Positions 2,964-20,346 of a stretch of DNA of 23,868 nucleotides are shown here, piece after piece. Origin of the DNA: a virus; the IMG/VR virus record IMGVR_UViG_3300020005_000026, positions 1 to 23,868 of that record. One strand, given 5' to 3'. Both the position numbers and the translations under genes were made by a program. Within the stretch, counting starts at the first letter, position 1. Every line of letters starts with the position of its first letter. The notes beneath the pieces were generated by a model. That model made no database searches and was not told the origin of the DNA. It worked only from the letters and a program-made list of their open reading frames with translations.

Positions 2964-5900
2964 GTGGACATAACTACACTTGGCATCGGTCTTGACTCGC
3001 GTCAAGTTGACGACGGGAGAAGGGCGCTCGATGACTTTTCGAAGTCTGCTGAGAAAGCAGAGAAGGCCGCTGAAGGTGTTGGCAAAGGCGCGAAGAAGGG
3101 TGCCAGCGATGTAAAGAGTTTTGAAGATCAAATGACTGCGGCGTCGGTCAAGGGTGCTCTTTTTGCTGACGCTATTCAGAAGGGTGTGCAGATAGCAATT
3201 GATGCCGTCAAGCAACTTTATGCATTGATGTCAGAGGCGGGTGATTACGCAGACCTTGCCGATATGACAGGCGCATCTGCGGTCAACATTGCGAAGCTCC
3301 AGACGGCGGCAGATGTGGCCGGTATATCCATGCAAAGCATGGCAGGCCACATGAGTGCGATGACGCGGATACTCAAGGCGACCGATGAAGAAGGCGACAA
3401 AGCAGCGCGAGCGTTGGCGCGCATCAACATCAAGTACGAAGACTTCATAAAGCTGGACCCGGCAGAACGCGTTGCGGCGCTCGGTGTTGCAATGGGCAAG
3501 TACGCAGATGGCGTTGAAAAGACAGAGATATTGCAGGCTGTGGCTGGCCGAGGTGCTGCTGAACTAGGTAAGGCAATAAAGGTTCTCGCAGATGAGACAG
3601 CGTTCGCAACGCGACTCAATAATGAAATGATTCAGTCGGTCGATGGCTTGAATGACGCTAACGCTGAATTCACATCGAAGTCGCGACAATACATTCAAGC
3701 GATACTAGTTGGCACTGTACCTGCGACCGAGGCATTCAAGCTCGTGATTAAAGAGACGACTGCATCCATGTTTGGGATGGGCGATGCGGCTGATGCACTC
3801 GGTGCGAATCAAGGGGCGAACAGTTTTTCTGAAGCTGTCGGGCACGGGCTTGCTGGTGCAATCACTGCTTTTCAGTTGATCTACCGGGTTGTTGAAAGTG
3901 TCATCAATGCTGTAGTGTCGTTAATTAAAGTCATCATCGACTTGGGTACGATGGACTTTTCAGCGGCATACAAGACCGTAGAAGATTTGGGCGAGAAGAT
4001 AAAATCTATTTGGTCCGAAGATTTTGCCGCGATCTCTTTTGGCAACACGCAAGGCTTCAAGGGAAGTTTTCAAAAGAAGCTCGATCTGATGTCCAAGGCT
4101 GCGCGAGAAGCAGCGGCAATGGCAGCGGGCGGTGAAGGTTCAGAAGAGGCGAAGGAAAGAATACGTCAGGGGCAAACCGACAAAGAAATAGCGGACGCCA
4201 AGAAGAAGGCAGATGAACTCGCAAAGATTGCGAAGAAGGCTGCCGAAGATGCAATCAAGCTAGCGCAAAAACAAGCCGATGATTTCGACAAGATCGTCGG
4301 CGGCGGCACTGCGAAGGCTGCTGGATACAACGATGACTTCATCGACTCGATGAAGATCATTAATGCCGAAAGCAAGAAGCGCAACTACACCGAAGAGCAG
4401 TACCGCACTATTGTTGATTCGCTGCTGAAGCAGCAACCGTTCTATGTGCAACAGCTCAAAGAGCAAGCTGAAGCGATGGAGAAGTACGTCGAGCTTGAGC
4501 AAAAGATGATCGACAAGGCGGCAACAGATGATGCCGCTACGCTAAAGGCATCAGCAGAAGCGGCGACGGCGGCAGAAACAGAACTCAAAAACTTCGGCAA
4601 GCTGAAGAGCGAGATTGCCGAGACGACGTTGCTGCGATTGAAAGATACGCTTGAGATGGTCAAGGCCGATCCGGTTAGCCGTGCCTTTTATCAGCAGCAA
4701 ATTTCGGATCAACAAAGAGTCGTGAATGCGTTGAAGGGCACAGAGTTGCTTGAGGCGCATAAGAAGTTAGCGGATGAAGCGAAGAAGGAATACGACAAAG
4801 CCTGGGAGCAGGTCGGACAATCGTTTGCCGATCAACTCATGCAAGGCGGTCGCTCTGCATCCGACTACATCAAGAATCTATTCAGGACGATGATTCTTCG
4901 TCCGACAGTCATGGCCGCATTTTCTGGCGGCGGTAGCGGCGGCGGTGCTGGCGGTGGCGGCATCAACATGGGCAACGCGACAAGCATGTACGGGATGTAC
5001 AACGCCTACAGCAGCGGCATGGGCTTGTCAGGGATGGCGGGCGGCGCAGGGGTCGGTGGCGCGGTGGGCAATATTGCGGCGGGCTACGCCGGGGCTACAG
5101 GCGGCGGCTTGGCGTTGTCAGGGGTGGGCGCGGCCGGACCCATCATGTCGACCAGCGGGGCGGCTGGCGCGGCCTTTGAGGGCTACATGGCCTCGACGGG
5201 CATCATGGCTGCGGAAGGCGGCACCCTGGCCGGTGCAGCCGGTGCCGGTGCAGCCGGTGGTGCCGGTGCGGGCGCGAGTGCTGCGCTCGCTGCGGTGCCG
5301 GTTGCCGGGTGGGTCGCGCTCGCGGCGATTGCCGCTTATGCAGCGTACAAGAAGTGGGGCAAGCACAAAGGCGGGCCAAAGGTCGAAGGCTCGTTCGGCT
5401 TGGATAGTGGCACGTTGATCGGCGCATACGGTAATCAGATGGACACCAACGCCGCACGTGCGGTGTCGGATTTGAACTCTCAGTATCGGCGCATGGCGAC
5501 GTTGCTTGGATCGTCGAATCAGAATATGCAATTCGGCGTTGGCTACTCGATGGACCCGGCTGGCACAGCGCCGTCGATGGTGCACATTCGCAGCGAGGTC
5601 AGCGAGTCGGTGAACAGAGAAGCCGGACGCACACCGGAAGAATTGGCGAAGGCGTTGGCCGAAGGATCGGCAACGGTGATGGTCGAAGCGTTGCGCAACT
5701 CTGGCATGGAGCCGCAGATGCTTGCCTACTTTGACAAGATCACTGTGGGCATGACGGATCAAGCGAAGCTCGGGGCATTCGAGCAAGTCGCGGCTGTCGG
5801 ACAATACTGGAAAGCAATGCAAGCGATGGGCGGCAACATGAAAGAGCTTCAGGGCATCTCGCTTGAAGCCGCAGTTGCGCTCGCAGAACTCTCCGGCGGT

Positions 5901-7415
5901 GTTGAACAGTTGTCGTCGAACATGTCGAGTTACATCGCCAACTACTACAGCGAGGCAGAGCAATTAAGCATCGGTTATCAGCAGTTGGCGAATCAACTTA
6001 ACGCTGCTGGCTCGGGGTGGCAAGGATGGTCGGAAGAGATTCTTCGTTCCTATGACAAGGAATGGTTTCGCAAGCAAGTTGAAGCGATTGATCTCACGAC
6101 AGAACTAGGGCAACGTCAATACGCGTCAATGCTTGCTGCAAGCGATGCCTTTGCCAAGCTCGACACAGCCGCGCGGTCAAGCACCGATTCGCTTGCTGGT
6201 CTGCAAGCGCACGTGCAGGCGATGGGTCTGAAGACATCCTACCTGGGCAAGATATCGGAAGACGCAGCGAAGAAGCTCGTCCTGCTTGCTGGCGGTGTCG
6301 ATAGTTTGGCGTCCGGTGTTGCGACGTATCAAGAGAAGTTCTACACCGACAAAGAGCGCGAGTCTTTGGCTTATCAACAGATGGCCGTGCAACTCAATGA
6401 ATCGGGTAGTGGGTGGACAGGCTTTTCAGAAGCAATTTTGCGTAGTTATACGCCTGCGCGTTTTCGTGAGATCGTTGAAGGTCTTAACCTCGAAGTCGAG
6501 GGGGACAGACAGCGTTATATTGCGCTGATGAAAGTTGCTGGCGCGTTCGCTGAACTCAAAGAGTCGACGGACGGTGCTATCAAGGCACAGGAAAGGTACG
6601 ACAAAGCGTTTGATACTTTGCGCGATGCTTATGAGCGTCACAAGAGTACCTTGATCGAGACGCGTGACGCGATGAAGTCCGCCACGCAATCGTTCTTGGA
6701 CTTCAATGCTTCGTTGAAGGTCGACGAGACCCTGACGACGCTCGATCCAAGTGCAAGGATGTGGGAGCTTCAGAATCAATACGGTTCGGCACGCAACAAA
6801 GCGGAGGCAGGTGGATACCAAGCTGAAGACGTATCGCGTATGCAAGAGGCTGCGCGGGCCTTGCTGCAAGGCGGCAGGGATTACTACGGCTCAGGCGAAG
6901 GCTACACCGAGTTGTTTAACCAGATCACGAAGGAAATGGAAGGCGCGGCGGCTGAGACAAAGATACGGCAGAACTATGCAGAGGCATCGTTGAAGAACCT
7001 CGAGTTGTCGGTCGGCTATCTCGTGAACATCGATAATCATCTCATTGATGTTTATACAGCCTTGACTCAGTTCCTGTCCGCGCGCACTGATCTTTATACG
7101 CTGGGCTATCCGCACGCCGAAGGTCTGTCGCGGGTTCCGTTCAACAATTATCCTGCGTTGCTTCACAAAGATGAATTGGTCTTGCCTGCACAGGAGTCGA
7201 ACTTCGTTCGCGGTCTGCCGGACTTCTCAGGGGAGTTGCGTGCGCTGCGTCAAGAGGTCGCATCACTGCGCAAAGAGAATCGGCAGGATGCAGGCAACAC
7301 TATCGGTGCGACGTTCACAGCGGCTGCGCAAGCAGCGCAAGTGCAAAGCGAAGCAACTATTCGGGCCGCGCGCCAGCGCGTCTATCAATCTCGTTCACGG
7401 CCTGTACTGGCCTAA
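2964..7415 (+). CDS. Tail tape measure protein
   Basis: 1483 residues from GTG 2964, with GAGGAG at 2952-2957 as ribosome binding site. The N-terminus is Lys/Ala/Glu-rich and helical. Hydrophobic segments lie near residues 295-330 and 772-796, typical of proteins that contact the inner membrane at DNA ejection. Long charged coiled-coil-prone stretches cover about 375-620. Residues about 653-772 form a Gly/Ala/Met-rich region at locally high GC. A module of about 100 residues is duplicated at about 970-1071 and 1102-1203. The C-terminus has the GYPHAEGLSRVPFNNYPALLH-like motif ending in KDELVLP that is typical of proteobacterial tape measures. The family sets tail length and is threaded through the tube; at about 0.15 nm per residue this predicts a tail near 220 nm (inference). 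Confidence 0.93.
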   Translation: MDITTLGIGLDSRQVDDGRRALDDFSKSAEKAEKAAEGVGKGAKKGASDVKSFEDQMTAASVKGALFADAIQKGVQIAIDAVKQLYALMSEAGDYADLADMTGASAVNIAKLQTAADVAGISMQSMAGHMSAMTRILKATDEEGDKAARALARINIKYEDFIKLDPAERVAALGVAMGKYADGVEKTEILQAVAGRGAAELGKAIKVLADETAFATRLNNEMIQSVDGLNDANAEFTSKSRQYIQAILVGTVPATEAFKLVIKETTASMFGMGDAADALGANQGANSFSEAVGHGLAGAITAFQLIYRVVESVINAVVSLIKVIIDLGTMDFSAAYKTVEDLGEKIKSIWSEDFAAISFGNTQGFKGSFQKKLDLMSKAAREAAAMAAGGEGSEEAKERIRQGQTDKEIADAKKKADELAKIAKKAAEDAIKLAQKQADDFDKIVGGGTAKAAGYNDDFIDSMKIINAESKKRNYTEEQYRTIVDSLLKQQPFYVQQLKEQAEAMEKYVELEQKMIDKAATDDAATLKASAEAATAAETELKNFGKLKSEIAETTLLRLKDTLEMVKADPVSRAFYQQQISDQQRVVNALKGTELLEAHKKLADEAKKEYDKAWEQVGQSFADQLMQGGRSASDYIKNLFRTMILRPTVMAAFSGGGSGGGAGGGGINMGNATSMYGMYNAYSSGMGLSGMAGGAGVGGAVGNIAAGYAGATGGGLALSGVGAAGPIMSTSGAAGAAFEGYMASTGIMAAEGGTLAGAAGAGAAGGAGAGASAALAAVPVAGWVALAAIAAYAAYKKWGKHKGGPKVEGSFGLDSGTLIGAYGNQMDTNAARAVSDLNSQYRRMATLLGSSNQNMQFGVGYSMDPAGTAPSMVHIRSEVSESVNREAGRTPEELAKALAEGSATVMVEALRNSGMEPQMLAYFDKITVGMTDQAKLGAFEQVAAVGQYWKAMQAMGGNMKELQGISLEAAVALAELSGGVEQLSSNMSSYIANYYSEAEQLSIGYQQLANQLNAAGSGWQGWSEEILRSYDKEWFRKQVEAIDLTTELGQRQYASMLAASDAFAKLDTAARSSTDSLAGLQAHVQAMGLKTSYLGKISEDAAKKLVLLAGGVDSLASGVATYQEKFYTDKERESLAYQQMAVQLNESGSGWTGFSEAILRSYTPARFREIVEGLNLEVEGDRQRYIALMKVAGAFAELKESTDGAIKAQERYDKAFDTLRDAYERHKSTLIETRDAMKSATQSFLDFNASLKVDETLTTLDPSARMWELQNQYGSARNKAEAGGYQAEDVSRMQEAARALLQGGRDYYGSGEGYTELFNQITKEMEGAAAETKIRQNYAEASLKNLELSVGYLVNIDNHLIDVYTALTQFLSARTDLYTLGYPHAEGLSRVPFNNYPALLHKDELVLPAQESNFVRGLPDFSGELRALRQEVASLRKENRQDAGNTIGATFTAAAQAAQVQSEATIRAARQRVYQSRSRPVLA
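5871..6575 (+). repeat. Duplicated ~100-residue module within the tape measure
   Basis: Two copies begin at about 5871 and 6267, an offset of 132 residues. Both show the same order of motifs: GGV(E/D)xL, a YY/FY strand-helix, YQQ(L/M)AxQLN, GSGWxG(W/F)SE(A/E)ILRSY, then FRxxVE with a GQRQY/GDRQRY helix ending in FA(K/E)L. The copies are diverged at DNA level, so the duplication is old. Confidence 0.8.
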
Positions 7416-7877: not shown

Positions 7878-8102
7878 GTGGAAGCAACTTGCGTCGCGGC
7901 GGTGTTCATCGAGTCGCGCGCGCCGACGAGCGTCATCTATCGCAACGTTGAGAACGGCGTTAGATGGCGCATCGACGGCGTGTGCTGTCAGTGCGGTGAA
8001 TGCTGGGCAGGGATGACGAATCCCAAGCCGGTACTCGATTGCCCGGTCATGCCCACGATCAGCAAGTTCCCTAGCTGCACGCTGAGCGGCGAGTATCTCT
8101 AA
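7878..8102 (+). CDS. Small Cys-rich protein, possible metal or Fe-S tail-tip component
   Basis: 74 residues from GTG 7878, 4 bases after the previous stop; the ribosome binding site is weak. Seven cysteines lie at 5, 36, 37, 39, 42, 55 and 67, with the cluster CCQCGEC at 36-42. Its stop shares one base with the hub start (TAATG at 8100-8104), implying coupled translation and perhaps fixed stoichiometry. Lambda gpL carries an Fe-S cluster and gene transfer agents have an Fe-S hub protein encoded at the same locus, so a metal-binding tip role is plausible, but this is inference from position and Cys content; the sequence is too short for a family call. Confidence 0.6.
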   Translation: MEATCVAAVFIESRAPTSVIYRNVENGVRWRIDGVCCQCGECWAGMTNPKPVLDCPVMPTISKFPSCTLSGEYL

Positions 8103-11100
8103 TGGCACTCACGTTCAAACTCTTCTTCGGTGACGGTGTACCTGTAGCGCCACCGACAGGCGGGTCGAAGCACCCGAACCTGCCGCGTGCTGCGCCTGCT
8201 AAATACTTTGAAGCCGCAGCCGCCAGTGTTGAGAAAGCCATCACGACAACGGCTAAGGGCGGCACGCAGGTTGTTATCACTGCGCCGAATGACACCGACG
8301 ACGCAACGAAGGCGCAGTCATTCTATTTCTCCCGATTCAGTTCACCCTATCTTGCTGCGCAAACTATTCCGCAGCAGGAATTGACGGTCACATTCTGGGC
8401 CGGTCAGACGAGCGGTTCGGGGGCGACGCACGCTTGTCCTGTCATTTATATCTGGCGTCCAAATACGCAACAGGTTGTCGGCTATATCTGGGATGGCCGC
8501 AACAACCTGGGACCGACAGCGAACAAGAACGTCGAGTGGTTTGCTTCTGGCAACGTCGTCAATGAGTTCGACTTCTTCTCGCTCAATGCAACGGCGACGA
8601 CGGCGTTTACTGGTTTAACAGCAGCGAACTCGTTATCGAGTCCTGTCACTTGCGAAAACGGCGACGTGCTTGTCGTCGAGATGTGGGGCAATGTCTATCC
8701 ATATCAGGATATGTCCGGCGCGTGCCCACGCTCTATCGGCATCAATACAGTTAGCTCGTGGATCAACTTCACGAATGCGCTGACGTGGGGCACAGCGGCA
8801 CCTACTGGCGCGCAGACGATTAGCGTCGCGGACCCGTTGACCTATCCGCCGATGGGAATGGGCGCGGCGACAGACGTCGCTGTGCTCAGTAGCGTTGCGT
8901 CAGGCTTGCTCTTCTCGCCAATGCTCGGTGCCGATGCGACATCGACCGTGGGGCGTGCGCCGGTGTTGACCAGTAGCGTCGCGAATGCGGCCAGCTATTC
9001 GTACACGCCGTCAACGAACACGACGGCGACGGTGCTGAGGATCACCAACAGCGTCCCATCGCCTGCGGCAACGTATGCGGCGTCGGTGAAGAGCGCATCG
9101 GACAACATCGAGATCAGGGCTGGACCGCTGAACTTTGCCCCGATGGTGATGGGCGACGCGACATCGACAATTCAGATCGGTGTTGTCAATATCTCAAGCA
9201 TCGCGTCGGCTGCATCCTATTCGGTATCGACGACAACACCGACAACGGATGTTTTTCAAGCGTACAGCGTACCGACCCCAGCGGCATCTTATGCGACGGC
9301 TGCGGCTAATGCGACATCATCGGTAACGCGTGTCTACGCAAGCATTGCGGATGCGGCCAGCTTCGCAACGCAGACCGGTTCCTTCCCTGCAACGTCGAGC
9401 GTAAACGTCACCAGTGCTGCGTCGCTGGCGACGTTTGCGTTATTAGCGGCATCAGGCGAGCCGTACTTCAGCGGCGTCACCACCTTCTATTGCATCGGTG
9501 ATGCATCGAACATCACGATCACCGGCGGGCGATACGCGAACGTCACCTATCTGCCGCGCGGTCAGCATAAGGACGCAGCGAATGCCGGTATCGACGGTGT
9601 GCTGCATGATTGGTGGGGCGGCACCGGCAACGTCGTCAACCGCACGATCTCGTCATTTGCGAACACGACACCGCAGTCGTTCTACTTCGGCCGGTTCGTG
9701 TCGCGTCCACTCGCTGCGCAAACCATCCAGGCGCAGAATTGGAATTATGCAGCGATTGTTGGCGAGGGCACGACTGCATCAAAGACGTTCTTCGCGCCGG
9801 TCATGTATGTGTGGCGTCCGTCGACGGGCACGGTTGTCGGGCACATCTTTGATGGCTCGTATGTCGGCACGAATGAATGGCCCGCGACGCCTGCCACGGC
9901 AACGCGCAACATGGCCGGTGCAGCGGTCACGGTGCAAGACGGCGACATGCTGGTCGTCGAAGCCTGGGCAGTTGCTCAGCACACGACAGCCGCAGCGAAC
10001 ACGCAGACATGGCGGATCACGGACAAGACATCACCGATCTATTCGCAGTACAAAGTTCTGTACTTGCCGCACTCGCCGCTGTGGTTTACTTCGTTCATAG
10101 CGGGCACAGCGCCGAGTGCCGGAAAGAATGCGCCGTCGAACCTGCCGTTTGCGGTGACAGGCAGTGCGACGACAATCGCGAACGAGTATCTATGGTCGGA
10201 GGTTGCGCCTAACGACGTGACGCCACCGCAGACTGCGTTGAGTGTCGCTGCGAAGAACAACCTAGCTGCACCGCAGTCGTACTACATTGGCCGGTTCTCT
10301 TCGCTGCCGCTTGCAGCGCAAACGATTCCCGCGCAGGTCTGGGAATATGAAGTCTCTATCGGCGCGGGCAGCGTCAACTCGCATTCGTATTTCTGGCCGG
10401 TCATCTATGTGTATCGGCCATCGACGGGCACGGTCGTAAAACAGATATTTTCCGATCCAGCGGCGCAAGCTGGCATCGAGTGGCGTGCGCCGAATGATGA
10501 TCCACGACTAGAGCAACGCTTCGCAGGCGCGTCGGCAAACGTTCTCGATAATGACATACTTGTCGTCGAGATCTGGGGCGCGGGTCAGCAGACGACAACA
10601 GGCGGGCTTTACTTGCAGCGCATGTGGATGAATGCGCGCAACTCGCGCATCGTCTCGCCGTACAAACTGCAATACTACACCGGGCTGAAGCAGACGATCA
10701 CGTCGACGGCAGATCCGGCAACCTACGATCTTGCTGAAGCCGATGCGACCAGCGCCTACACGCTCGGGCGCGTCGACGTGCCATCGGAAGCGTCGCCAGC
10801 GACGTACGCCCAGGCGGCAACGGCAACGACGGCGTCGAGCGTCCAGGCCTTCAGCGTCGCCCAGGCGCTGACCTACCCGCTGATGGGGCTGGCTGCGGCC
10901 ACGTCGACCATTGCTGGGCTTAGCAACGCAGGCGCGGGCTCGTGGGCGCTTGGCGGGGCACTAGGCTATGGCAGCATTGGCAGGGTCTCGAACGGCCAGC
11001 CTGGGGCATTCTCGCAAGGCGTTTCCCAGGCCAGCGCCGGTGTTGCCACGACTGCCGCGCTTGCCAGCTATGCCTATAGCCCGACAGCAACGACGACCGT

Positions 11101-14100
11101 CTCGATTGGCCGCATCATCCCATCGACGGCGAATGCGGCCGGTTATGCATACACACCGGCGACGGTCACCGCCGATTTTGTTGCGCTCATTTCGTCGACC
11201 GTAGCGATTGGGTACAGCGGCAATTATGCGCCGACGACGAACACGATCTTTGTTCAGCCGATCTCGCAAGTGTCGGTTGCTTTGCCCGCGACCTATACAG
11301 TCGACGCAAAGAACACAACGGAATCGCTAGGGTTAGTCTATACGTCCGTTGCCTCGTCAACGTCGTTCAGTACAAACGCAGCGAGTGCATACGCTTATCA
11401 AGACCGCGTCGTTAGCACGTTGCCTGCTGCCTCCTATGGTTGGTCAGGCGCATCGGCATCGGCATCGCTAAGCAGAAGCTCTGTTGCGCTGAACGCAACG
11501 TACAGTTATTCACCGCAGAACACATTTGAAGGACAAGGGTTCGTCTACGCGTCCGATGCCTCGTCTGCATCGTTCAACCTTAACGCGATCAACGCCTATG
11601 CATATCAGGCACGCGTCACTAACGCGTTGCCCGCTTCCTATGGCTGGTCCGGCGCAGCGACGTCGCTAAGCCGGACATCGATTGCGCTCAATGTCCTTTA
11701 CGACTTCTCGCCGCAGTCGACGACGGTGGCGCTTGGCCGCATCATTCCGTCAAGCGCAGATTCGACATCGTTCCTTCTCCGATTGATCGATGCTTATGCG
11801 TCGCTCAATCTTGTTACCAATGCAGGCAGTCGCTCGTACGGGTGGTCGGGTGCATCGGCAACAAGTGGTCAGATTCGCGTCGTCGCTTCGGATGCAACTG
11901 GAGCGACCTACGGCTACACCGCAAAGGACGTGACGGCTGGCTTTACGCTGATCACGCCAAGTGATGCAGCGAAGGCAACCTACGCGTCGAATGCGCGCGA
12001 TGCATACGGCTATGCGGATCGTTCGTCGGTTGCGTCGTCATTGCCGTTTGCCGGTGTTAGCCTGCCAGCAACGACGACAACCAGCTTCGCGCGGCTCTCG
12101 ATGGCGCTGCCGGTGGAGTTCATTGTCTCCACGCCGACGACGACTTCGGTCATCAACACGCGGGTCATCAGCGACGCGTCGTCGTTTAGCTTCAAGACCA
12201 CCGGGCAGGTGGCCGTCAGCGGTGCCAACACAAACTCGGTTGCCGCGAGCACGACGTACGCTGCGACGGTGACGGTTGGGACGACCGCCGTCCCGTCAAA
12301 GAATTCGATAGCGTCTGGGACAAGCTATTACGCGACGACGCCGGATGCATGGTCCGGCCGCGTCACGTTCTCCGTTGCGCTGTCGCGGACATTTAGCCTC
12401 TCAGCGCCGGACACGGTCTCGTACATCCCAGGCAAGCAGACATCGACAGCGCTGCCCGCAACCTATAGCCTATCCACGACGGCGCAGACTGCGCATCGCT
12501 ATGGCTACGTCTCGCAAGCAGGCGCGGCACGGTATCTTCTGGAGTGCGTGCCTTGGCCTGCGTTTGACTTTGTCCCAAGCATCGTTAAGCCGCCGATAGT
12601 CTACCCGACGTACACGCCGCGAGCGCCGATTAGTGATGCGCAGTTTGCGACGTGGCTGGAAGACGAGCGCGCAGTTCGTGTCGTGTTGATCGAGACACGA
12701 TGCGTAGAGCCGATCACCAGCAACACGGAGCTTGTCTACTTTGCGTCGTCCGGCTTCGTCACAAAGATTGAAGATGGCGCGTCTGTTTATTATTCACCGC
12801 TGATGCGCGGCGGGCTTGAGTTTGCACAAACCATCGACCTCAATTTAAGCGGCAATCAATCGTATGGTGATATCGAGCTAGACAATTCCACCGGCGACCT
12901 TGATTGGATGTTCGACCGCATTTGGCTGTACAAAGAATTCAAAGCCTATGTCGGTGATGCGTCTTGGCCGCGCAGGGACTTCAGGCAAATATTCGACGGC
13001 AATATTGAAGACGTTGACAGCAGCCAGCGCGACACCGTGAACGTGCGCTTGCGCGATAAGTTCTTCCGGCTCGACATACCATTGCACGAAGACAAAGTGG
13101 GCGGCACCACAACCAACGCTGATCGGCTCTTGCCGTTCTCGGTTGGTGAATGTCATAACGTCACGCCGGTGTTGACCGATCCGAAACAGCTCTATTACGC
13201 GTATCACAACCACGCAGCCGAAGGCGTGTTCGAGGTTCGCGATAACGGCATCCCTGTCGATTACATATTCATGACGGGTGCGCCGATGTCGTTCAAGTTG
13301 TCGAAGCAGCCGTATGGCCGGATCACTTGCAGCTTGCAGGGCGACAAACTTGGCGGCGGGCATCCTGGCACTGGCTACGTGAACACCGTGGCTCCTATCA
13401 TCAGGCGTTTGATGATGGAGCACGGCACAGAGGCGGTGAACCGTTTCACGTCGGCAGATATTGATACCGACAACTTCACAGCATTTGATATTGCCAACAA
13501 ATATCCGGTCGGCTTATATACGACAGAGCGTATGACTGTGCTCGAAGCATGTCAAACAATCGCTTCGTCGATTGGTGCGCGTCTGACGATGACTGCGCTT
13601 GGCAAGGCGCAACTCGTGAAGCTGCAACTGCCGCCATCAACGGAATCGAGAACACTTGTCTATAACGGCGACTTCACTTCTGGGACAGATGGTTGGTCCT
13701 ATAGCGGCACCAATGGCGGCATCGTGCCTGATCCTGCTTTTCCATTTGCGACATCCATCAATCTTAACGGTGCTGGCGTTTGGAATATACCGGGTCAGTT
13801 TGTGTTCTTCTCGCATCAGGCCTCTGGCCCGACAAATCCAGCCTACTATTATGAGTACGCGAGTGCTCCAATTATCGTCGAGCCCGGTAAGCAATACACC
13901 GTGAGTGCATATACAGGCGCGCACAGATGCCGGGTTGAAGTTTGCTTCTGGGAATACACACAGAACGGCACGTTGCTTGGCTCGTCACCTTTGGCCGCTT
14001 CTGCGTCTAACGATGCACAGGGACAAGGCGGGCCTTATCCAACGGACTATAGTCTCTATACGCGAGTCACTGACACGGCAATAACGAGATCGAACACGTA

Positions 14101-14689
14101 CTATATTCGCGTGATGCTGCGCAAGTGGGATACCAAACCCGGCAATGTTGATTCGTGGATGTTCGTGACGGGTGTGAAGGTCGAAAGCGCCAGCACCGCT
14201 GCCGCAGCGCCCATCGTCGTTACTGAGTCGGACATGGTATTGGGCTCGATGCATATCGCGGATCGTCTGCCATTGGTGCCCGGTGGCGTCCTGGGCTATT
14301 GCAAGAACTGGACGGTGCAAGAAGACACTGCACAGGGTGTCCCTGAAGATCATAAGTCGATGTATGCGCGGGAGTGGCTCACGATTGCCATCGACGAGCA
14401 ACTTATGCGCTCGAAGTACGGCATACCGGGACAACCGGAACAAGAGAACTCGCTGTTGTTGGATAGACAGAGTGCTTTGACCGAATGCGGTCGTCGAGTG
14501 AATCTACGTTCTTCACAGCGGCATGTTTATGAGTTCGTTGGATTTGCTAATTTGATGTTCACGCCAGTGGGTGCGCCGATGACTGTCTTTCATCGTCGGT
14601 TTGGTTTGTCCGCAGGCAAGACGGGACAAGTCATTTCGGTCGCTGTAAACTGGCTGTCGTCCCAGGTCACAATAAAGGTGTTGATCTAA
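8102..14689 (+). CDS. Giant composite tail hub / host-interaction protein
   Basis: 2195 residues; start at ATG 8102 overlaps the previous stop. Order by residue: about 1-245, 470-660 and 670-865 are three copies of one beta-rich module, each with S(F/Y)Y(F/I)xRF, LAAQTI, P(V/M)(I/M)Y(I/V)(W/Y)RP and D(V/M/I)LVVE(M/A/I)W motifs. About 245-460 and 870-1478 are arrays of ~24-residue Ser/Ala/Thr repeats. About 1478-1850 and 2036-2195 look like the conserved tail-hub part of proteobacterial siphoviruses (WLEDERAVRVVLIE, YYSPLMRGGLEF, YGDIEL, RQIFDGNIE, VRLRDKFFRLD). A CBM4/9-like insertion at about 1851-2035 starts with NGDFTSGTDGW. The hub part probably closes the tube tip; the N-terminal modules probably project and bind host glycans. 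The hub call rests on motif memory and position. Confidence 0.78.
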   Translation: MALTFKLFFGDGVPVAPPTGGSKHPNLPRAAPAKYFEAAAASVEKAITTTAKGGTQVVITAPNDTDDATKAQSFYFSRFSSPYLAAQTIPQQELTVTFWAGQTSGSGATHACPVIYIWRPNTQQVVGYIWDGRNNLGPTANKNVEWFASGNVVNEFDFFSLNATATTAFTGLTAANSLSSPVTCENGDVLVVEMWGNVYPYQDMSGACPRSIGINTVSSWINFTNALTWGTAAPTGAQTISVADPLTYPPMGMGAATDVAVLSSVASGLLFSPMLGADATSTVGRAPVLTSSVANAASYSYTPSTNTTATVLRITNSVPSPAATYAASVKSASDNIEIRAGPLNFAPMVMGDATSTIQIGVVNISSIASAASYSVSTTTPTTDVFQAYSVPTPAASYATAAANATSSVTRVYASIADAASFATQTGSFPATSSVNVTSAASLATFALLAASGEPYFSGVTTFYCIGDASNITITGGRYANVTYLPRGQHKDAANAGIDGVLHDWWGGTGNVVNRTISSFANTTPQSFYFGRFVSRPLAAQTIQAQNWNYAAIVGEGTTASKTFFAPVMYVWRPSTGTVVGHIFDGSYVGTNEWPATPATATRNMAGAAVTVQDGDMLVVEAWAVAQHTTAAANTQTWRITDKTSPIYSQYKVLYLPHSPLWFTSFIAGTAPSAGKNAPSNLPFAVTGSATTIANEYLWSEVAPNDVTPPQTALSVAAKNNLAAPQSYYIGRFSSLPLAAQTIPAQVWEYEVSIGAGSVNSHSYFWPVIYVYRPSTGTVVKQIFSDPAAQAGIEWRAPNDDPRLEQRFAGASANVLDNDILVVEIWGAGQQTTTGGLYLQRMWMNARNSRIVSPYKLQYYTGLKQTITSTADPATYDLAEADATSAYTLGRVDVPSEASPATYAQAATATTASSVQAFSVAQALTYPLMGLAAATSTIAGLSNAGAGSWALGGALGYGSIGRVSNGQPGAFSQGVSQASAGVATTAALASYAYSPTATTTVSIGRIIPSTANAAGYAYTPATVTADFVALISSTVAIGYSGNYAPTTNTIFVQPISQVSVALPATYTVDAKNTTESLGLVYTSVASSTSFSTNAASAYAYQDRVVSTLPAASYGWSGASASASLSRSSVALNATYSYSPQNTFEGQGFVYASDASSASFNLNAINAYAYQARVTNALPASYGWSGAATSLSRTSIALNVLYDFSPQSTTVALGRIIPSSADSTSFLLRLIDAYASLNLVTNAGSRSYGWSGASATSGQIRVVASDATGATYGYTAKDVTAGFTLITPSDAAKATYASNARDAYGYADRSSVASSLPFAGVSLPATTTTSFARLSMALPVEFIVSTPTTTSVINTRVISDASSFSFKTTGQVAVSGANTNSVAASTTYAATVTVGTTAVPSKNSIASGTSYYATTPDAWSGRVTFSVALSRTFSLSAPDTVSYIPGKQTSTALPATYSLSTTAQTAHRYGYVSQAGAARYLLECVPWPAFDFVPSIVKPPIVYPTYTPRAPISDAQFATWLEDERAVRVVLIETRCVEPITSNTELVYFASSGFVTKIEDGASVYYSPLMRGGLEFAQTIDLNLSGNQSYGDIELDNSTGDLDWMFDRIWLYKEFKAYVGDASWPRRDFRQIFDGNIEDVDSSQRDTVNVRLRDKFFRLDIPLHEDKVGGTTTNADRLLPFSVGECHNVTPVLTDPKQLYYAYHNHAAEGVFEVRDNGIPVDYIFMTGAPMSFKLSKQPYGRITCSLQGDKLGGGHPGTGYVNTVAPIIRRLMMEHGTEAVNRFTSADIDTDNFTAFDIANKYPVGLYTTERMTVLEACQTIASSIGARLTMTALGKAQLVKLQLPPSTESRTLVYNGDFTSGTDGWSYSGTNGGIVPDPAFPFATSINLNGAGVWNIPGQFVFFSHQASGPTNPAYYYEYASAPIIVEPGKQYTVSAYTGAHRCRVEVCFWEYTQNGTLLGSSPLAASASNDAQGQGGPYPTDYSLYTRVTDTAITRSNTYYIRVMLRKWDTKPGNVDSWMFVTGVKVESASTAAAAPIVVTESDMVLGSMHIADRLPLVPGGVLGYCKNWTVQEDTAQGVPEDHKSMYAREWLTIAIDEQLMRSKYGIPGQPEQENSLLLDRQSALTECGRRVNLRSSQRHVYEFVGFANLMFTPVGAPMTVFHRRFGLSAGKTGQVISVAVNWLSSQVTIKVLI
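11342..11953 (+). repeat. Three higher-order repeats (69, 66, 69 residues) in the hub repeat array
   Basis: Within the ~24-residue repeat array, three consecutive blocks at 11342-11548, 11549-11746 and 11747-11953 each hold three subrepeats in the same order: one with (S/T)SF and a following AYAY-like motif, one with SYGWSGA, and one with A(T/L)Y followed by a (S/T)xQ/TxK loop. The third block is the most diverged. GCATCG also occurs three times in tandem at 11450-11467. All blocks are in frame and belong to the coding sequence. Confidence 0.78.
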
Positions 14690-16057: not shown

Positions 16058-16464
16058 TGGCTACTTCACTACGCCCCTTCGACTATGGCAAGAAGGACTA
16101 TATCGACCGGCTGAATGATCTGTACACGCAGGGCATGACGCGCGTGCGGACCAGCGCGCTCGACCCCGACGCACCGGGCACAGACGTGACGGCTAGCAGG
16201 CAGATGCGCCTGGGCGACAACGGCTGCTGCGCCGATGTCAGAGCGAGCAACGTGGTCTTCACGCTTCATGCGGAATGCTTGGTAGACGGGTTCTCGTTCG
16301 TCATCAACGTCGTGACAGGCTCAGCGTCCGTCAACGTTGCCGGTATTGGCTTCTTCACAGATTCCGGCGGTACTCCAACGTCGAAGTCGATCTCAGTTGG
16401 CAACGCTGCAATCATTTCGAGCGATGGCATCGGCTTCCGAATCTTTCGGATGACTGCGGTTTAA
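16057..16464 (+). CDS. Small virion protein, unknown
   Basis: 135 residues. I choose ATG 16057 (TGATG overlap with the preceding stop) over GTG 16054 because GGAGG at 16045-16049 is 7 bases from the ATG and only 4 from the GTG. The first 60 residues are charged and carry CC at about 57-58; the remainder is Gly/Ser/Val-rich, with the look of a beta domain. No motif is recognised. Position among tip genes suggests a minor tail protein. Confidence 0.55.
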   Translation: MATSLRPFDYGKKDYIDRLNDLYTQGMTRVRTSALDPDAPGTDVTASRQMRLGDNGCCADVRASNVVFTLHAECLVDGFSFVINVVTGSASVNVAGIGFFTDSGGTPTSKSISVGNAAIISSDGIGFRIFRMTAV

Positions 16465-16473
16465 GGGCACATC

Positions 16474-18474
16474 ATGCCGCGCATCTTTGCACAAAGAACG
16501 ATCAGGCTTGCGCCGACCGGCATTCCGGTAAACGCACCGTCGGTTAACACGGTGCCAGTAGCGGCGCAGACAACGCCGCAAGGCACGGCGAAGCAATTCT
16601 CCGAGAGCGGCGGCAACGTCGTGAAGATTGCGGACGTCGATACGCCGATCATTACGACCACGGTTAGCTGCTCGGTCGGCACGGTCGAAGTGATCCCGAA
16701 TCCAGCAACGTTCATCTCATATAACAACACGACGCGCGTCATTGTCTCTGGCTCGGTTGCCAATGTGAATCGCGCGCTGAACGGGATGTACTATCGCCCA
16801 CCGCCTGCGACAGACGTGACGGCCGTTATTACGCTGCGCACTACGGACGGACTCAACGTCGACACTGACAGCTTCAACGTGACCGTTGGCATCGGGACGC
16901 CACCGCCCCCAACGCCGCAGCCGCCTGTCAATACTGTGACAAGTGCGAAGACGACAGCCTATCAAACGGCACTCAATCTGGCGAGCGCAAACATCAGCGT
17001 CTACGATGCCGACACGCCATCACTGACGACGACGCTGACGATGACAGGCGGTGCGTGCGGTGTGTCCGCTGCTGGCGGCGCTTCAGTGACCGGCAACAAT
17101 ACGGGGCTTGTCACGATCTCTGGCACGCAAGCGCAAATCAACGCAGCACTTGCAACGCTGGTCTATACACCAAGTGCAGGCTTCACGGGTGCCGGACAAA
17201 TTGCAATGTCGACATCAGATGGTTCGCTAGTGGACTACGACACCATTGCAATCACTGTTCAGGCTCCTGTCGGTGCGCCGGTCAACACGGTGCCAGTGCA
17301 ACGGTCAATGTCGATGAATGGCACGCAGACATTCTCCGTTGCTAATGGCTTTCCGATCTCTGTTGCCGATCCGAATTCAACGTCAGTGCAAGTCAACATG
17401 AGTTGCAATAACGGCAAGCTCAAGGCAGTCGTCACGGGCGCGGCTAACCTTGCTGATGGTTTTCCGCCGAAGATCAACTATGCGTTCTGGACTGCCTACG
17501 ATACGACATCGCTCTTGAATGTGAGTCAGAATTTCAACGTCATTGGATTGTTCAACTTTCGCAACGGCGGCAATGGCCTGGGCGGCGGCGCAGCGTCATG
17601 GCCGTGGGGTGCCGGTACGCCTTCACCGGGCGACGTAGCATCAGTGGTTGCACGCGGGCAAAGAGTGGTCGTCATCATAGGTGGCTACGGGAATACGTTC
17701 TTTTATCAGACGCAGCAAGAGTCGGACGCCTTGCTCGCTTCGCTGACGCCATTCATCAACGGGCTCGGCGGCGCAGCGGCTATCTCCGGTGTTGAATTCA
17801 ACAATTGGACAGGTGATCCTGTCGGTGATTACGCGACGCAGTTGATCTACATCGCAGGAAAGTTGAAGACGCAGTATGGCTCTAACTTCTCGATCTCTTT
17901 CCCGGTGAAGAATAACTCCACGGCTAACCGCAACCTGATGTTGGCGATGCACAATGCAGGCTGTCTGACGTGGGTGTCGCCGCAGTACACCGACAACGCT
18001 GCCTACAAGACGGCTGGCGTTCCGAAGGGTCAGATTGATACGTGGCTTGCTACGCCATTGCCTACGACAAAGGTGTTGATGGGACTCTCGTCTAATTACA
18101 ACACGACGACGGACTCGCTGACGATAGCAGAGTGCACGCGTGAATGGGATGCGGCCTATGCTGCGAATCCTACGCTGCGCGGCGTAAGCTGCTATAACGC
18201 GCACCTCGATCTTACGGCAACCAGTCCTAATCAATTCGCAAATACGTTCAAGGCCAGATTCGACACCGCCATGCAGACCGGCGCGGGCATCACCGGCAAT
18301 GATACGAACTCGCTTGCCATCTCTGGCACGCTTGCCCAGGTCAACGCTGCACTCGATGGCCTGACCTACAAGCCAAATAGCGCCTTCACTGGCGGCGACA
18401 CGATCACTATCACAACGAGTGACGGCACCTTGTCAGATACCGACACAATTGGCGTGATGGTCATAAACGCGTGA
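16474..18474 (+). CDS. Cadherin-like repeat protein with embedded degenerate GH18 domain
   Basis: 666 residues; AAGGG at 16463-16467 precedes ATG 16474. Repeat 1 (about 23-137) and repeat 2 (about 149-265) are Ig/cadherin-like, each opening with PxVNTV and ending with TTDG/TSDG, DTDSF/DYDTI and a final strand. Repeat 3 opens at 268, is broken at about 326, and resumes at about 603 to the C-terminus. The insert (about 334-597) has glycoside hydrolase family 18 barrel features: INYAFW strand, VVVIIGG at 398-404 and a following GVEFNNW at 439-445. The family needs DGxDxDxE; here the aspartates are changed and the catalytic glutamate position is W445, so hydrolysis is unlikely and a lectin-like role is inferred. 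Probably a tail fibre or tip adhesin recognising N-acetylglucosamine-type sugars. Confidence 0.7.
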   Translation: MPRIFAQRTIRLAPTGIPVNAPSVNTVPVAAQTTPQGTAKQFSESGGNVVKIADVDTPIITTTVSCSVGTVEVIPNPATFISYNNTTRVIVSGSVANVNRALNGMYYRPPPATDVTAVITLRTTDGLNVDTDSFNVTVGIGTPPPPTPQPPVNTVTSAKTTAYQTALNLASANISVYDADTPSLTTTLTMTGGACGVSAAGGASVTGNNTGLVTISGTQAQINAALATLVYTPSAGFTGAGQIAMSTSDGSLVDYDTIAITVQAPVGAPVNTVPVQRSMSMNGTQTFSVANGFPISVADPNSTSVQVNMSCNNGKLKAVVTGAANLADGFPPKINYAFWTAYDTTSLLNVSQNFNVIGLFNFRNGGNGLGGGAASWPWGAGTPSPGDVASVVARGQRVVVIIGGYGNTFFYQTQQESDALLASLTPFINGLGGAAAISGVEFNNWTGDPVGDYATQLIYIAGKLKTQYGSNFSISFPVKNNSTANRNLMLAMHNAGCLTWVSPQYTDNAAYKTAGVPKGQIDTWLATPLPTTKVLMGLSSNYNTTTDSLTIAECTREWDAAYAANPTLRGVSCYNAHLDLTATSPNQFANTFKARFDTAMQTGAGITGNDTNSLAISGTLAQVNAALDGLTYKPNSAFTGGDTITITTSDGTLSDTDTIGVMVINA

Positions 18475-18812
18475 TGATGTGGGACGACATTCAACAATGG
18501 ATACTCCGCTTCGCCGGTGTTGCAGGTGCGCTCGTGTCGATGCGATTCGTCAATGGTACGTTTTTTGAGCGCGTGCTGATGGTGATTGGTGGGGCGTTCT
18601 TTTCTTTCTACGCTACGGAGTGGGTTGCGCAATGGCTCGCGCTGCCGCAGGGGCTTACAGGCTTCCTCCTGGGCCTGTTCGGCATGTCCGTGCTTAGCCG
18701 GGTGTGGGAATGGGTGCAGTCGACAAACGCCGTGTCGGGCTTTCTGGACGCTTGGCTGCGCAAGCCGCCCCCGCCAACACCGCCAGCACCGCCAAAGGAT
18801 GACAAGAAATGA
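18474..18812 (+). CDS. Putative holin (three membrane segments)
   Basis: 112 residues from ATG 18474, which overlaps the previous TGA by one base; GTG 18471 and ATG 18477 are possible alternatives. Three hydrophobic segments lie at about residues 10-28, 33-55 and 60-79, followed by a Pro-rich then Lys/Asp-rich tail (PPAPPKDDKK), a layout common in holins. Holins form inner-membrane lesions that release endolysin at the lysis time. Position two genes before a lambda R-like endolysin that lacks a signal peptide supports this. The family is not identifiable by a motif, so holin versus antiholin versus other membrane protein is open. Confidence 0.6.
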   Translation: MMWDDIQQWILRFAGVAGALVSMRFVNGTFFERVLMVIGGAFFSFYATEWVAQWLALPQGLTGFLLGLFGMSVLSRVWEWVQSTNAVSGFLDAWLRKPPPPTPPAPPKDDKK

Positions 18813-19108
18813 TCGACATCTCTTTCTTATCTTCGGCCTGCTGGTTCTTCGTCGGAGTCTCGTCCCTCGTTGCGAGCTTCGCTGGGTACGTGCGCAAGAC
18901 CGTAATGGAATGCGTCGCGCTGGCCGGTGTTAGCCTGGGCGCGTTCTCGCGGTCCTACTATGTTTTCATCCGGCAAGAGACGGACCCTGATGCGTTATGG
19001 ATATCCATTGCGCTCGCGATCTATTGCCTTGCCATGTGGTATAAACTTATGTGGGTCGTTCCGCATCGTCCAGACTACAAGCCGCCGAGAAAATCGCGCT
19101 ATTACTGA
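18809..19108 (+). CDS. Small membrane protein, possible second holin or antiholin
   Basis: 99 residues; start overlaps the preceding stop by 4 bases (ATGA), and its own stop overlaps the endolysin ATG (TGATG). Hydrophobic segments at about 5-25, 33-50 and 62-82, with a basic Pro/Lys/Arg C-terminus. It has no lipobox, so it is not an obvious spanin lipoprotein. Coupled placement between putative holin and endolysin suggests a lysis-timing partner (antiholin or second holin). No sequence family recognised. Confidence 0.55.
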   Translation: MIDISFLSSACWFFVGVSSLVASFAGYVRKTVMECVALAGVSLGAFSRSYYVFIRQETDPDALWISIALAIYCLAMWYKLMWVVPHRPDYKPPRKSRYY

Positions 19109-20346
19109 TGGCAGACATCACGCTCACGGACTATATCGTCAAGCGCAACGTGCGGGCGTTCCTGTGGGCACTTCGCTATGGCGAGGGCACGCAGGGCGAA
19201 GAGGGATATCGCACGCTATTCGGCGGAAAGCTGTTCCTGGGGGCCGATGGCATCTATAGCACGTTCGATGACTTTGCCGATCATCCCCGCACGCGCATCA
19301 CGGTCACCCTAAAGAACGGCAAGCGGCTCACGTCGACTGCGGCCGGTGCCTACCAAATTCTCGAACGCACCTGGGACGGCGTCTGCAATCAATACGGCTT
19401 CTTGAACTTCGAACCGCCGACGCAAGACCTTGCCGCGATAGCCTTGATCGCTGGCCGCAAAGCACTCGAGGACATTGTCGAAGGCCGTATCCATATTGCG
19501 GTGTTGAAGTGCAACAAAGAATGGGCATCGCTTCCCGGCTCGCCCTATGGTCAGCCGGTCATTACGCTGGAGGAATTCAGGCGCGAGTATGAGGAGGCGG
19601 GCGGACTGTTTATGAACGAAGACACCGCACGCGATCCGCCGATGGTGCCGGTCGTGGCGCAGGCTAAACTACCGCACATCGCCAGCAAGACAACCGAGAT
19701 CGCTCGCGGCAGCACGGACCTCGGCGTCGAATTCCAACAGGAGAAAGCTATGCCAATACCTGCCGTCGTCGCGGCGCTGTTGCCCAGCCTGATTCAGCTA
19801 GTGCCGCAGCTGACGAAGATATTTGGATCGGGCTCTGAAGTCTCGCAGCGCAATATAGCAGCGGCCGAAGCCGTGTTCACTGTTGCCAAAGATGCCATCG
19901 GCGCAAAGAACGAACAAGAGGTGATCGAAGCTATAAAGGCCGACCCCGTCCAGGCGACGGCGGTGAAGACGGCCATCGAGAAGAACTACCTCCAGATTCA
20001 AGAGGCTGGCGGCGGCGGTATAGCGGCGGCACGCGACTATAGTATTGCCGTTGCACAGATGCGGACACCGGAAGGCCAGCCGCTATCGCTTTTGACGCAG
20101 CCCGCGTTCGTCATCTCCGTCGTCATGCTCGGGCTGGTCGTCATGATGGTGCTGGTCGTCCTTTTCCCTTGGGAAATATTCAGGGCGAACGGCGGACAAA
20201 TTTACACCGATGAAGTACGATTGATCGTGGTGACGGCTATCATTGGTTCCCTTTCGACCATCGGGGCCTTTTGGCTCGGGTCGTCCTTTGCAAGTCGACA
20301 GCCACCTCCCGCGCTTGGCACGCGCTCACGTTCAACTGACCTTTAA
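19108..20346 (+). CDS. Endolysin (lambda R-like lytic transglycosylase) fused to a membrane domain
   Basis: 412 residues from ATG 19108 (TGATG overlap); the earlier GTG 19051 lies within the upstream gene and would add an unrelated 19 residues. Residues about 12-165 match lambda gpR in order: RAFLWALRYGEGT with catalytic E26, FADHPR at 56-61, STAAGAYQ at 76-83, and EWASLPGSPYGQ at 138-149. This domain cleaves murein glycan strands. Lambda R ends near 158 residues, but here the frame continues through a linker (about 166-214) into a second part with an AGGGG motif and two membrane segments at about 333-354 and 371-394. That part resembles a separate holin-like or membrane protein usually encoded alone after endolysins. 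No N-terminal signal is seen, so release would need a holin unless the fusion tethers the enzyme. Confidence 0.85.
   Translation: MADITLTDYIVKRNVRAFLWALRYGEGTQGEEGYRTLFGGKLFLGADGIYSTFDDFADHPRTRITVTLKNGKRLTSTAAGAYQILERTWDGVCNQYGFLNFEPPTQDLAAIALIAGRKALEDIVEGRIHIAVLKCNKEWASLPGSPYGQPVITLEEFRREYEEAGGLFMNEDTARDPPMVPVVAQAKLPHIASKTTEIARGSTDLGVEFQQEKAMPIPAVVAALLPSLIQLVPQLTKIFGSGSEVSQRNIAAAEAVFTVAKDAIGAKNEQEVIEAIKADPVQATAVKTAIEKNYLQIQEAGGGGIAAARDYSIAVAQMRTPEGQPLSLLTQPAFVISVVMLGLVVMMVLVVLFPWEIFRANGGQIYTDEVRLIVVTAIIGSLSTIGAFWLGSSFASRQPPPALGTRSRSTDL
19739..19744 (+). promoter_or_regulatory. Internal ribosome binding site in the endolysin fusion gene
   Basis: AGGAGA at 19739-19744 lies 5 bases before the in-frame ATG at 19750, which is exactly where the membrane domain begins. 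It is a better match than the sites preceding many genes of this operon, suggesting that a shorter product is also made. Confidence 0.6.
19750..20346 (+). CDS. Internal-start membrane protein nested in the endolysin gene
   Basis: 198 residues, in frame with the endolysin and sharing its stop. The N-terminus MPIPAVVAALLPSLIQ is an amphipathic or hydrophobic helix; residues 28-85 are helical and charged, AGGGG lies at 86-90, and membrane segments at about 119-140 and 157-180 precede a short basic tail. I recall free-standing proteins of this layout encoded after phage endolysins and sometimes called holin-like. Whether this one is made alone, only as the fusion, or both cannot be settled from sequence. 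Its expression is inferred from the strong internal ribosome binding site. Confidence 0.5.
   Translation: MPIPAVVAALLPSLIQLVPQLTKIFGSGSEVSQRNIAAAEAVFTVAKDAIGAKNEQEVIEAIKADPVQATAVKTAIEKNYLQIQEAGGGGIAAARDYSIAVAQMRTPEGQPLSLLTQPAFVISVVMLGLVVMMVLVVLFPWEIFRANGGQIYTDEVRLIVVTAIIGSLSTIGAFWLGSSFASRQPPPALGTRSRSTDL

Follow-up and report, generated by a model that had tools for sequence, protein, structure and literature searches.

A GH18-derived barrel without its catalytic residues, embedded in a cadherin-like repeat of a soil phage protein, probably holds host-surface sugars instead of cutting them

Introduction

The active site of GH18 enzymes includes the DGxDxDxE motif with the catalytic glutamate on strand beta-4, a catalytic tyrosine on beta-6 (QxYN) and a substrate-stacking tryptophan on beta-8. 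Phages are thought to alternate between cutting and merely holding surface glycans and, to our knowledge, a graded natural series inside one enzyme family is seldom available. It is already known that loss of catalysis in GH18 gives lectins and that phage receptor-binding proteins contain lectin-like parts (PMC13082707, PMC6363177). Chi-lectins and chitinase-like proteins (TCLL, YKL-39, SI-CLP, narbonin, concanavalin B, XIP-I) share the GH18 barrel but have no functional catalytic set, and several of these plant and animal proteins bind GlcNAc, chito-oligomers or LPS (PMC3662789). Among phages, receptor-binding proteins with CBM or lectin-like domains, such as KP32 gp38 and the R-pyocin fibre, have tail parts that bind sugar without catalysis, and for these a derivation from a GH18 enzyme is not reported (PMC13082707, PMC6363177). 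Neither chitinase nor GH18 is mentioned in a review from 2017 that covers virion-associated carbohydrate enzymes (PMC5380687), and our searches of open-access papers turned up none that describes a phage virion protein with a GH18-derived module.

Unlike the plant and animal chi-lectins, the module described here is encoded by a phage and embedded in a repeat, and the loss of its site took place inside a phage clade. It lies in what we call the window, the whole stretch of 23,868 nucleotides analysed (IMG/VR record IMGVR_UViG_3300020005_000026).

Results

Genomic setting and domain layout

The 23.9 kb window matches, at 99.99%, part of a longer IMG/VR contig (59 kb) that comes from a different metagenome and, since this second contig has the same open reading frame (ORF) at 99.99% DNA identity, the ORF is not an assembly artefact. 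The ORF (16474-18474) lies between tail-tip genes and lysis genes, with a tail tape-measure gene (2964-7415, phrog_25966) and a gene for 2195 residues (8102-14689, phrog_8917) upstream, a holin gene directly downstream (18471-18812, phrog_2359) and an endolysin gene after the holin (19051-20346, phrog_90). Its product may be displayed on the virion and act in adsorption. The features of the ORF are as follows.

16474..18474, + strand: ORF of 666 residues with three cadherin-like repeats, the third bearing a GH18-like insert (ORF list, relatives' genes)
16534..16887, + strand: cadherin-like repeat 1, residues 21-138 (z 16.8 against repeat 2)
16924..17265, + strand: cadherin-like repeat 2, residues 151-264 (repeat alignments)
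17266..17448, + strand: N-terminal half of repeat 3, residues 265-325 (alignment z, beta strands in the model)
17449..18273, + strand: GH18-derived (beta/alpha)8 module, residues 326-600, barrel modelled at 330-599 (profiles, AlphaFold2 model)
17785..17817, + strand: beta-4 motif SGVEFNNWTGD, residues 438-448, replacing DGxDxDxE (relatives' alignment)
17806-17808 and 17809-17811, + strand: codons of Trp445 and Thr446
17983..17997, + strand: beta-6 motif QYTDN, residues 504-508, with Thr506 at the GH18 catalytic Tyr (alignment)
18193..18195, + strand: Tyr574, at the position of the beta-8 substrate-stacking Trp (alignment)
18274..18471, + strand: C-terminal half of repeat 3, residues 601-666 (alignment with repeat 2, z 19)

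The first two thirds of the 8102-14689 product are rich in Ser, Ala and Thr and contain numerous short, irregular repeats (ASYxxS/ATY units, for example), and the PHROG match of this product is confined to residues 1513-1848. A further gene, 852-2171, encodes 439 residues and adjoins the tail tube gene; its C-terminal 280 residues are 47% identical to a domain of a 1992-residue fibre protein on contig L028, described below. This C-terminal domain had no Pfam or PDB match, and a GH12-like reading of it found no support.

A GH18 barrel splits the third repeat

Alignment of repeat 2 with the rejoined halves of repeat 3 scored 195, where shuffled sequences averaged 43 (z 19), with boundaries near residues 325 and 601; an earlier note on this sequence had proposed that an insert splits repeat 3 and that the C-terminal half resembles repeat 2, and both points held. 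By itself, the C-terminal half reached z 19 to repeat 2, and the N-terminal half gave a weaker match, with z 3.7 for repeat 2 and 7.5 for repeat 1. The 275-residue insert matched none of the repeats (z 0.3-0.8), and both halves of repeat 3 are beta strands in the AlphaFold2 model. Two profiles scored below their cut-offs, namely Big_9 on the flanking repeats (16.7 bits; cut-off 23.6) and NCBIfam tand_rpt_95 over residues 622-664 (E 2.8e-5, 24 bits; cut-off 90).

The insert descends from GH18, as seen in model superposition, in profile matches and in a relative with an intact DGVDWDLE. AlphaFold2 modelling of repeat 3 together with the insert (pLDDT 86, pTM 0.73) gave eight beta/alpha units at residues 330-599, and the modelled barrel superposed on 3ebv with Z 28.9 (rmsd 2.3, 254 residues) and on 3n18 with Z 28.7 (254-260 residues across the two structures). 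The L028 module, modelled at pLDDT 86, reached Z 30.9 in its structural match. The GH18-like barrel that the note had placed in the repeat was thus recovered by structure prediction and superposition (Z about 29); a different fold, which the note had named as counter-evidence, is not what the model shows.

With the window protein alone, the insert had no match in Pfam, PHROGs or the PDB, which is a matter of sensitivity because profiles of its relatives succeed. As profiles grew from 3 to 5, 8 and 12 modules, the E value for PDB GH18 chitinases went from 0.002 to 9e-5, 1e-15 and 1e-16, and all 21 PDB matches of the 12-module phage profile at E<=0.01 were GH18 chitinases (best 1e-16). Profile-profile comparison with 11 bacterial GH18 domains gave a full-length match (prob 99.6, E 8e-25), and relatives L026 and L084 scored 29.3 and 29.1 bits with Pfam GH18, whose cut-off is 29.6. 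Bacterial chitinases of the ChiA / ChiNCTU2 type (3ebv, 3n11, 4tx8, 5kz6) share the full-barrel fold and the sequence profile; in contrast to them, the window module has shorter loops, sits within a phage Ig-type repeat and has DGxDxDxE, the beta-6 Tyr and the beta-8 Trp all changed.

Relatives of the module and their architectures

Relatives were gathered by viral contig scans. Ten distinct copies are embedded in cadherin-type proteins (the window, L003, L012, L013, L019, L023, L024, L037, L041 and L074; not counted are L004, L014, L017 and L025, each truncated or nearly identical to another copy), with the insert in repeat 3 in every one, and the scans returned no cadherin-type protein without the insert. 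Because the ten form one clade and all lie in repeat 3, the insertion is old and single.

Seven copies of the same family, sister to the embedded clade, belong to fibre or hub proteins and are terminal, tandem or linker-joined. Two follow one another after a fibre-like N-terminus in L026. The L028 gene (54-6029) encodes a single protein of 1992 residues with a beta-helix, an unknown domain, the GH18-like module and GH8, a domain content that marks it as a multi-enzyme tail protein. The module is joined to CBM35 in L068 and to a beta-helix in L083, accompanies a sub-threshold CBM4/9 in L086 and, in L087 (4825-6612), forms the end of a baseplate hub (PF09931 + PF09356) after a Pro-Ala linker. 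The nearest relative outside these two clades is phage-borne L084 (IMGVR_UViG_3300032180_000001), a stand-alone GH18 of 332 residues that also has LysM and is probably an enzyme of the cell-wall or chitin type. L084 is the first branch of the tree, after which fibre/hub copies (82/94) and embedded copies (100/99) part. The L026 phage differs from the window's tape-measure phage by an internal virion protein (phrog_511); the module is therefore present in more than one type of phage.

A decayed GH18-like copy with internal tandem duplications was also seen on an Eleftheria terrae plasmid (L006 2900-3500 = NZ_CP106952.1 461361-461873), a possible hint to a host among the Burkholderiales.

Pfam and PHROGs leave the window's copy and its nearest relatives unrecognised, and tblastn against 50,697 annotated phage records gave no usable match to the family; annotation therefore misses the module. 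Two weak tblastn matches, VBv52 and MT835579, had no GH18-like features on reading. No relative was found in 84,980 genomes by two exact-short-peptide scans, of a kind that can miss distant ones. When viral proteins were searched by structure, the matches were GH18 enzymes of giant viruses, a few uncharacterised phage proteins and, as a further group, phage barrels of spherulation family 4 or GH5; among the matches listed, no phage protein was annotated GH18.

The catalytic set is lost in the embedded clade

Consistently with the earlier note, SGVEFNNW stands in place of DGxDxDxE (codons at 17785 onward; those of GVEFNNW occur once, at 17788-17808), the first Asp having become Ser and the middle Asp Asn. 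L084 keeps an intact DGVDWDLE. The fibre and hub copies read DGIDWNNFE, DGIDFNNFE, DGIDWNNYE, DGIDFNNYE, DGVDFNTFE, DGCDMNNYE and DGCEFAFFD, as in the window without the middle Asp, and with Glu at the Glu position in all copies except one, which has Asp. The embedded copies read DGIDFQCFD, DGVDFQNYD, DGIDIQFYD, DGIDFWCFD, DGIDFRNYI, HGVDFNNWY, DGVDFNNWV, DGVDFNNWN and, in the window and L003, SGVEFNNWT.

The note had the catalytic glutamate replaced by Trp, and automatic aligners likewise pick the ungapped register that puts Trp445 at the Glu place. This part needs correction: because diverse relatives keep Glu right after the aromatic residue (NNFE, NNYE), we favour a register with a one-residue bulge before the conserved aromatic-Glu pair, in which the lost Glu is probably Thr446, and its neighbour Trp445 corresponds to the hydrophobic residue that precedes Glu. 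We consider the ungapped reading, by which Glu would have become aromatic in all relatives, less likely, since it leaves unexplained a conserved Glu after the aromatic that is kept alongside the Tyr and the Trp. When the registers were compared by substitution scores, the bulge gained 0.5-12, which is about the size of a gap penalty and too little to decide between them. Whichever register holds, the catalytic residues are lost: neither Trp445 nor Thr446 is Glu, the middle Asp is gone, Thr506 and Tyr574 stand for the beta-6 Tyr and the beta-8 Trp, and no obvious replacement glutamate, which the note had named as counter-evidence, is apparent in the barrel.

As to whether relatives keep the glutamate, the two groups of copies differ. 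Glu, Tyr and Trp are kept in 7/8, 8/8 and 8/8 of the fibre, hub and stand-alone copies and in 0/10, 0/10 and 2/10 of the cadherin-embedded ones, counts that refer to members of clades (the embedded copies being one clade) and not to independent events.

Selection, exchange and the barrel mouth

The GH18-derived module is under purifying selection. Seven pairs gave the insert a dN/dS of 0.08-0.22, close to the values for repeats 1 and 2; dS approached or exceeded 1 in most of these pairs and was saturated in some, and no stop codons were found in the module at the 13 places searched. Identity between the window and L003 is 68-78% over 16314-17063 and 82-95% over ~17064-18560, a plateau that spans repeat 3 with the barrel, reaches into the holin gene and is flanked by lower identity; this pattern suggests that repeat 3 and the barrel were recently exchanged as a unit.

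The barrel mouth in the window carries the aromatics W339, Y342, W376, F409, Y411, W445, Y505, Y542 and Y574, of which W339, W376, F409, Y411, Y542 and Y574 are aromatic in nearly all copies. Conservation of the catalytic-face loops (0.41) was not above that of the rest of the barrel (0.43-0.55), and enrichment of conserved aromatics on the catalytic face was not significant (p 0.14); both results could have favoured ligand binding and neither did.

Discussion

These data identify a GH18 barrel within a phage repeat protein, and we think it fairly likely that an enzyme was here converted into a binding module on a phage adhesin, with the barrel acting as a chi-lectin. This reading is favoured because relatives of the module occur on fibre-like, hub and depolymerase-like proteins, and because the gene follows tape-measure and tip genes and adjoins holin and endolysin. 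Against it count the catalytic face, which is neither preferentially conserved nor significantly enriched in conserved aromatics, and the change of the beta-8 Trp to Tyr in the window. By analogy with the plant and animal proteins, sugar is the most likely ligand of the embedded barrel. The earlier suggestion of a chitinase turned tail-fibre lectin thus stands as regards the conversion, which is seen across relatives; sugar binding and a place on a tail fibre proper would be putative, the gene lying between the tail-tip and lysis genes and relatives of the module sitting on fibre-like and baseplate-hub proteins.

Binding of another kind is an unlikely alternative, in which the barrel would contact a protein of the host or of the tail, much as GH18-fold inhibitors of the XIP-I type bind proteins, or would act as mere bulk. 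XIP and XAIP, both without chitinase activity (PMC3662789), are indeed among the structural matches, and the catalytic face shows no preferential conservation; however, the mouth aromatics shared by nearly all copies argue against it, as does the pairing of the module with CBM35, CBM4/9 (sub-threshold), GH8 or beta-helix on fibre and hub relatives. We hold it slightly less probable still that the module continues to work as a depolymerase, slow or altered, with Glu441, Asp448 or Asp507 in place of the glutamate. The change of four catalytic positions together, including Tyr and the middle Asp, speaks against such a rebuilt site, as does the finding of T, V, N, Y or I where Glu would stand in 6/10 embedded copies, whereas conservation of Asp448 in the window's clade, the location of Asp507 at the Asn after the Tyr of bacterial GH18 domains, Asp at the Glu position in four other embedded relatives, the strong purifying selection and the fusion of one fibre-type relative (L028) to GH8 are all compatible with it. 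Random decay of a passenger domain on its way to being lost would account for the several active-site positions that differ among embedded copies, but is very improbable given the low dN/dS at such dS values and the ten intact, distinct copies free of stops wherever these were searched.

If conversion into a lectin is the correct account, phage tail proteins would first have gained a GH18 chitinase-type barrel, and a single later insertion would have placed it in a loop of cadherin-like repeat 3. The barrel's catalytic set would then have decayed within the embedded clade, with the fold and the mouth aromatics held by purifying selection. Repeats 1 and 2 may form a stalk presenting the barrel, whose mouth would hold a beta-linked amino-sugar or related glycan of the host envelope, resulting in reversible adsorption with the receptor left undegraded. 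The dead barrel of this soil phage would thus, probably, grip a host-surface sugar polymer instead of cutting it.

More tentatively, living sequences may allow a path to be read from an active enzyme (L084) through Glu-keeping fibre and hub modules to an embedded lectin serving as a receptor-binding head, a proposal to which we give somewhat less than even weight. Intact, altered and lost sites, together with a change of architecture, lie on one tree, so that the order of loss is testable with natural proteins, and a GH18-derived binding module would join the known receptor-binding folds of phages.
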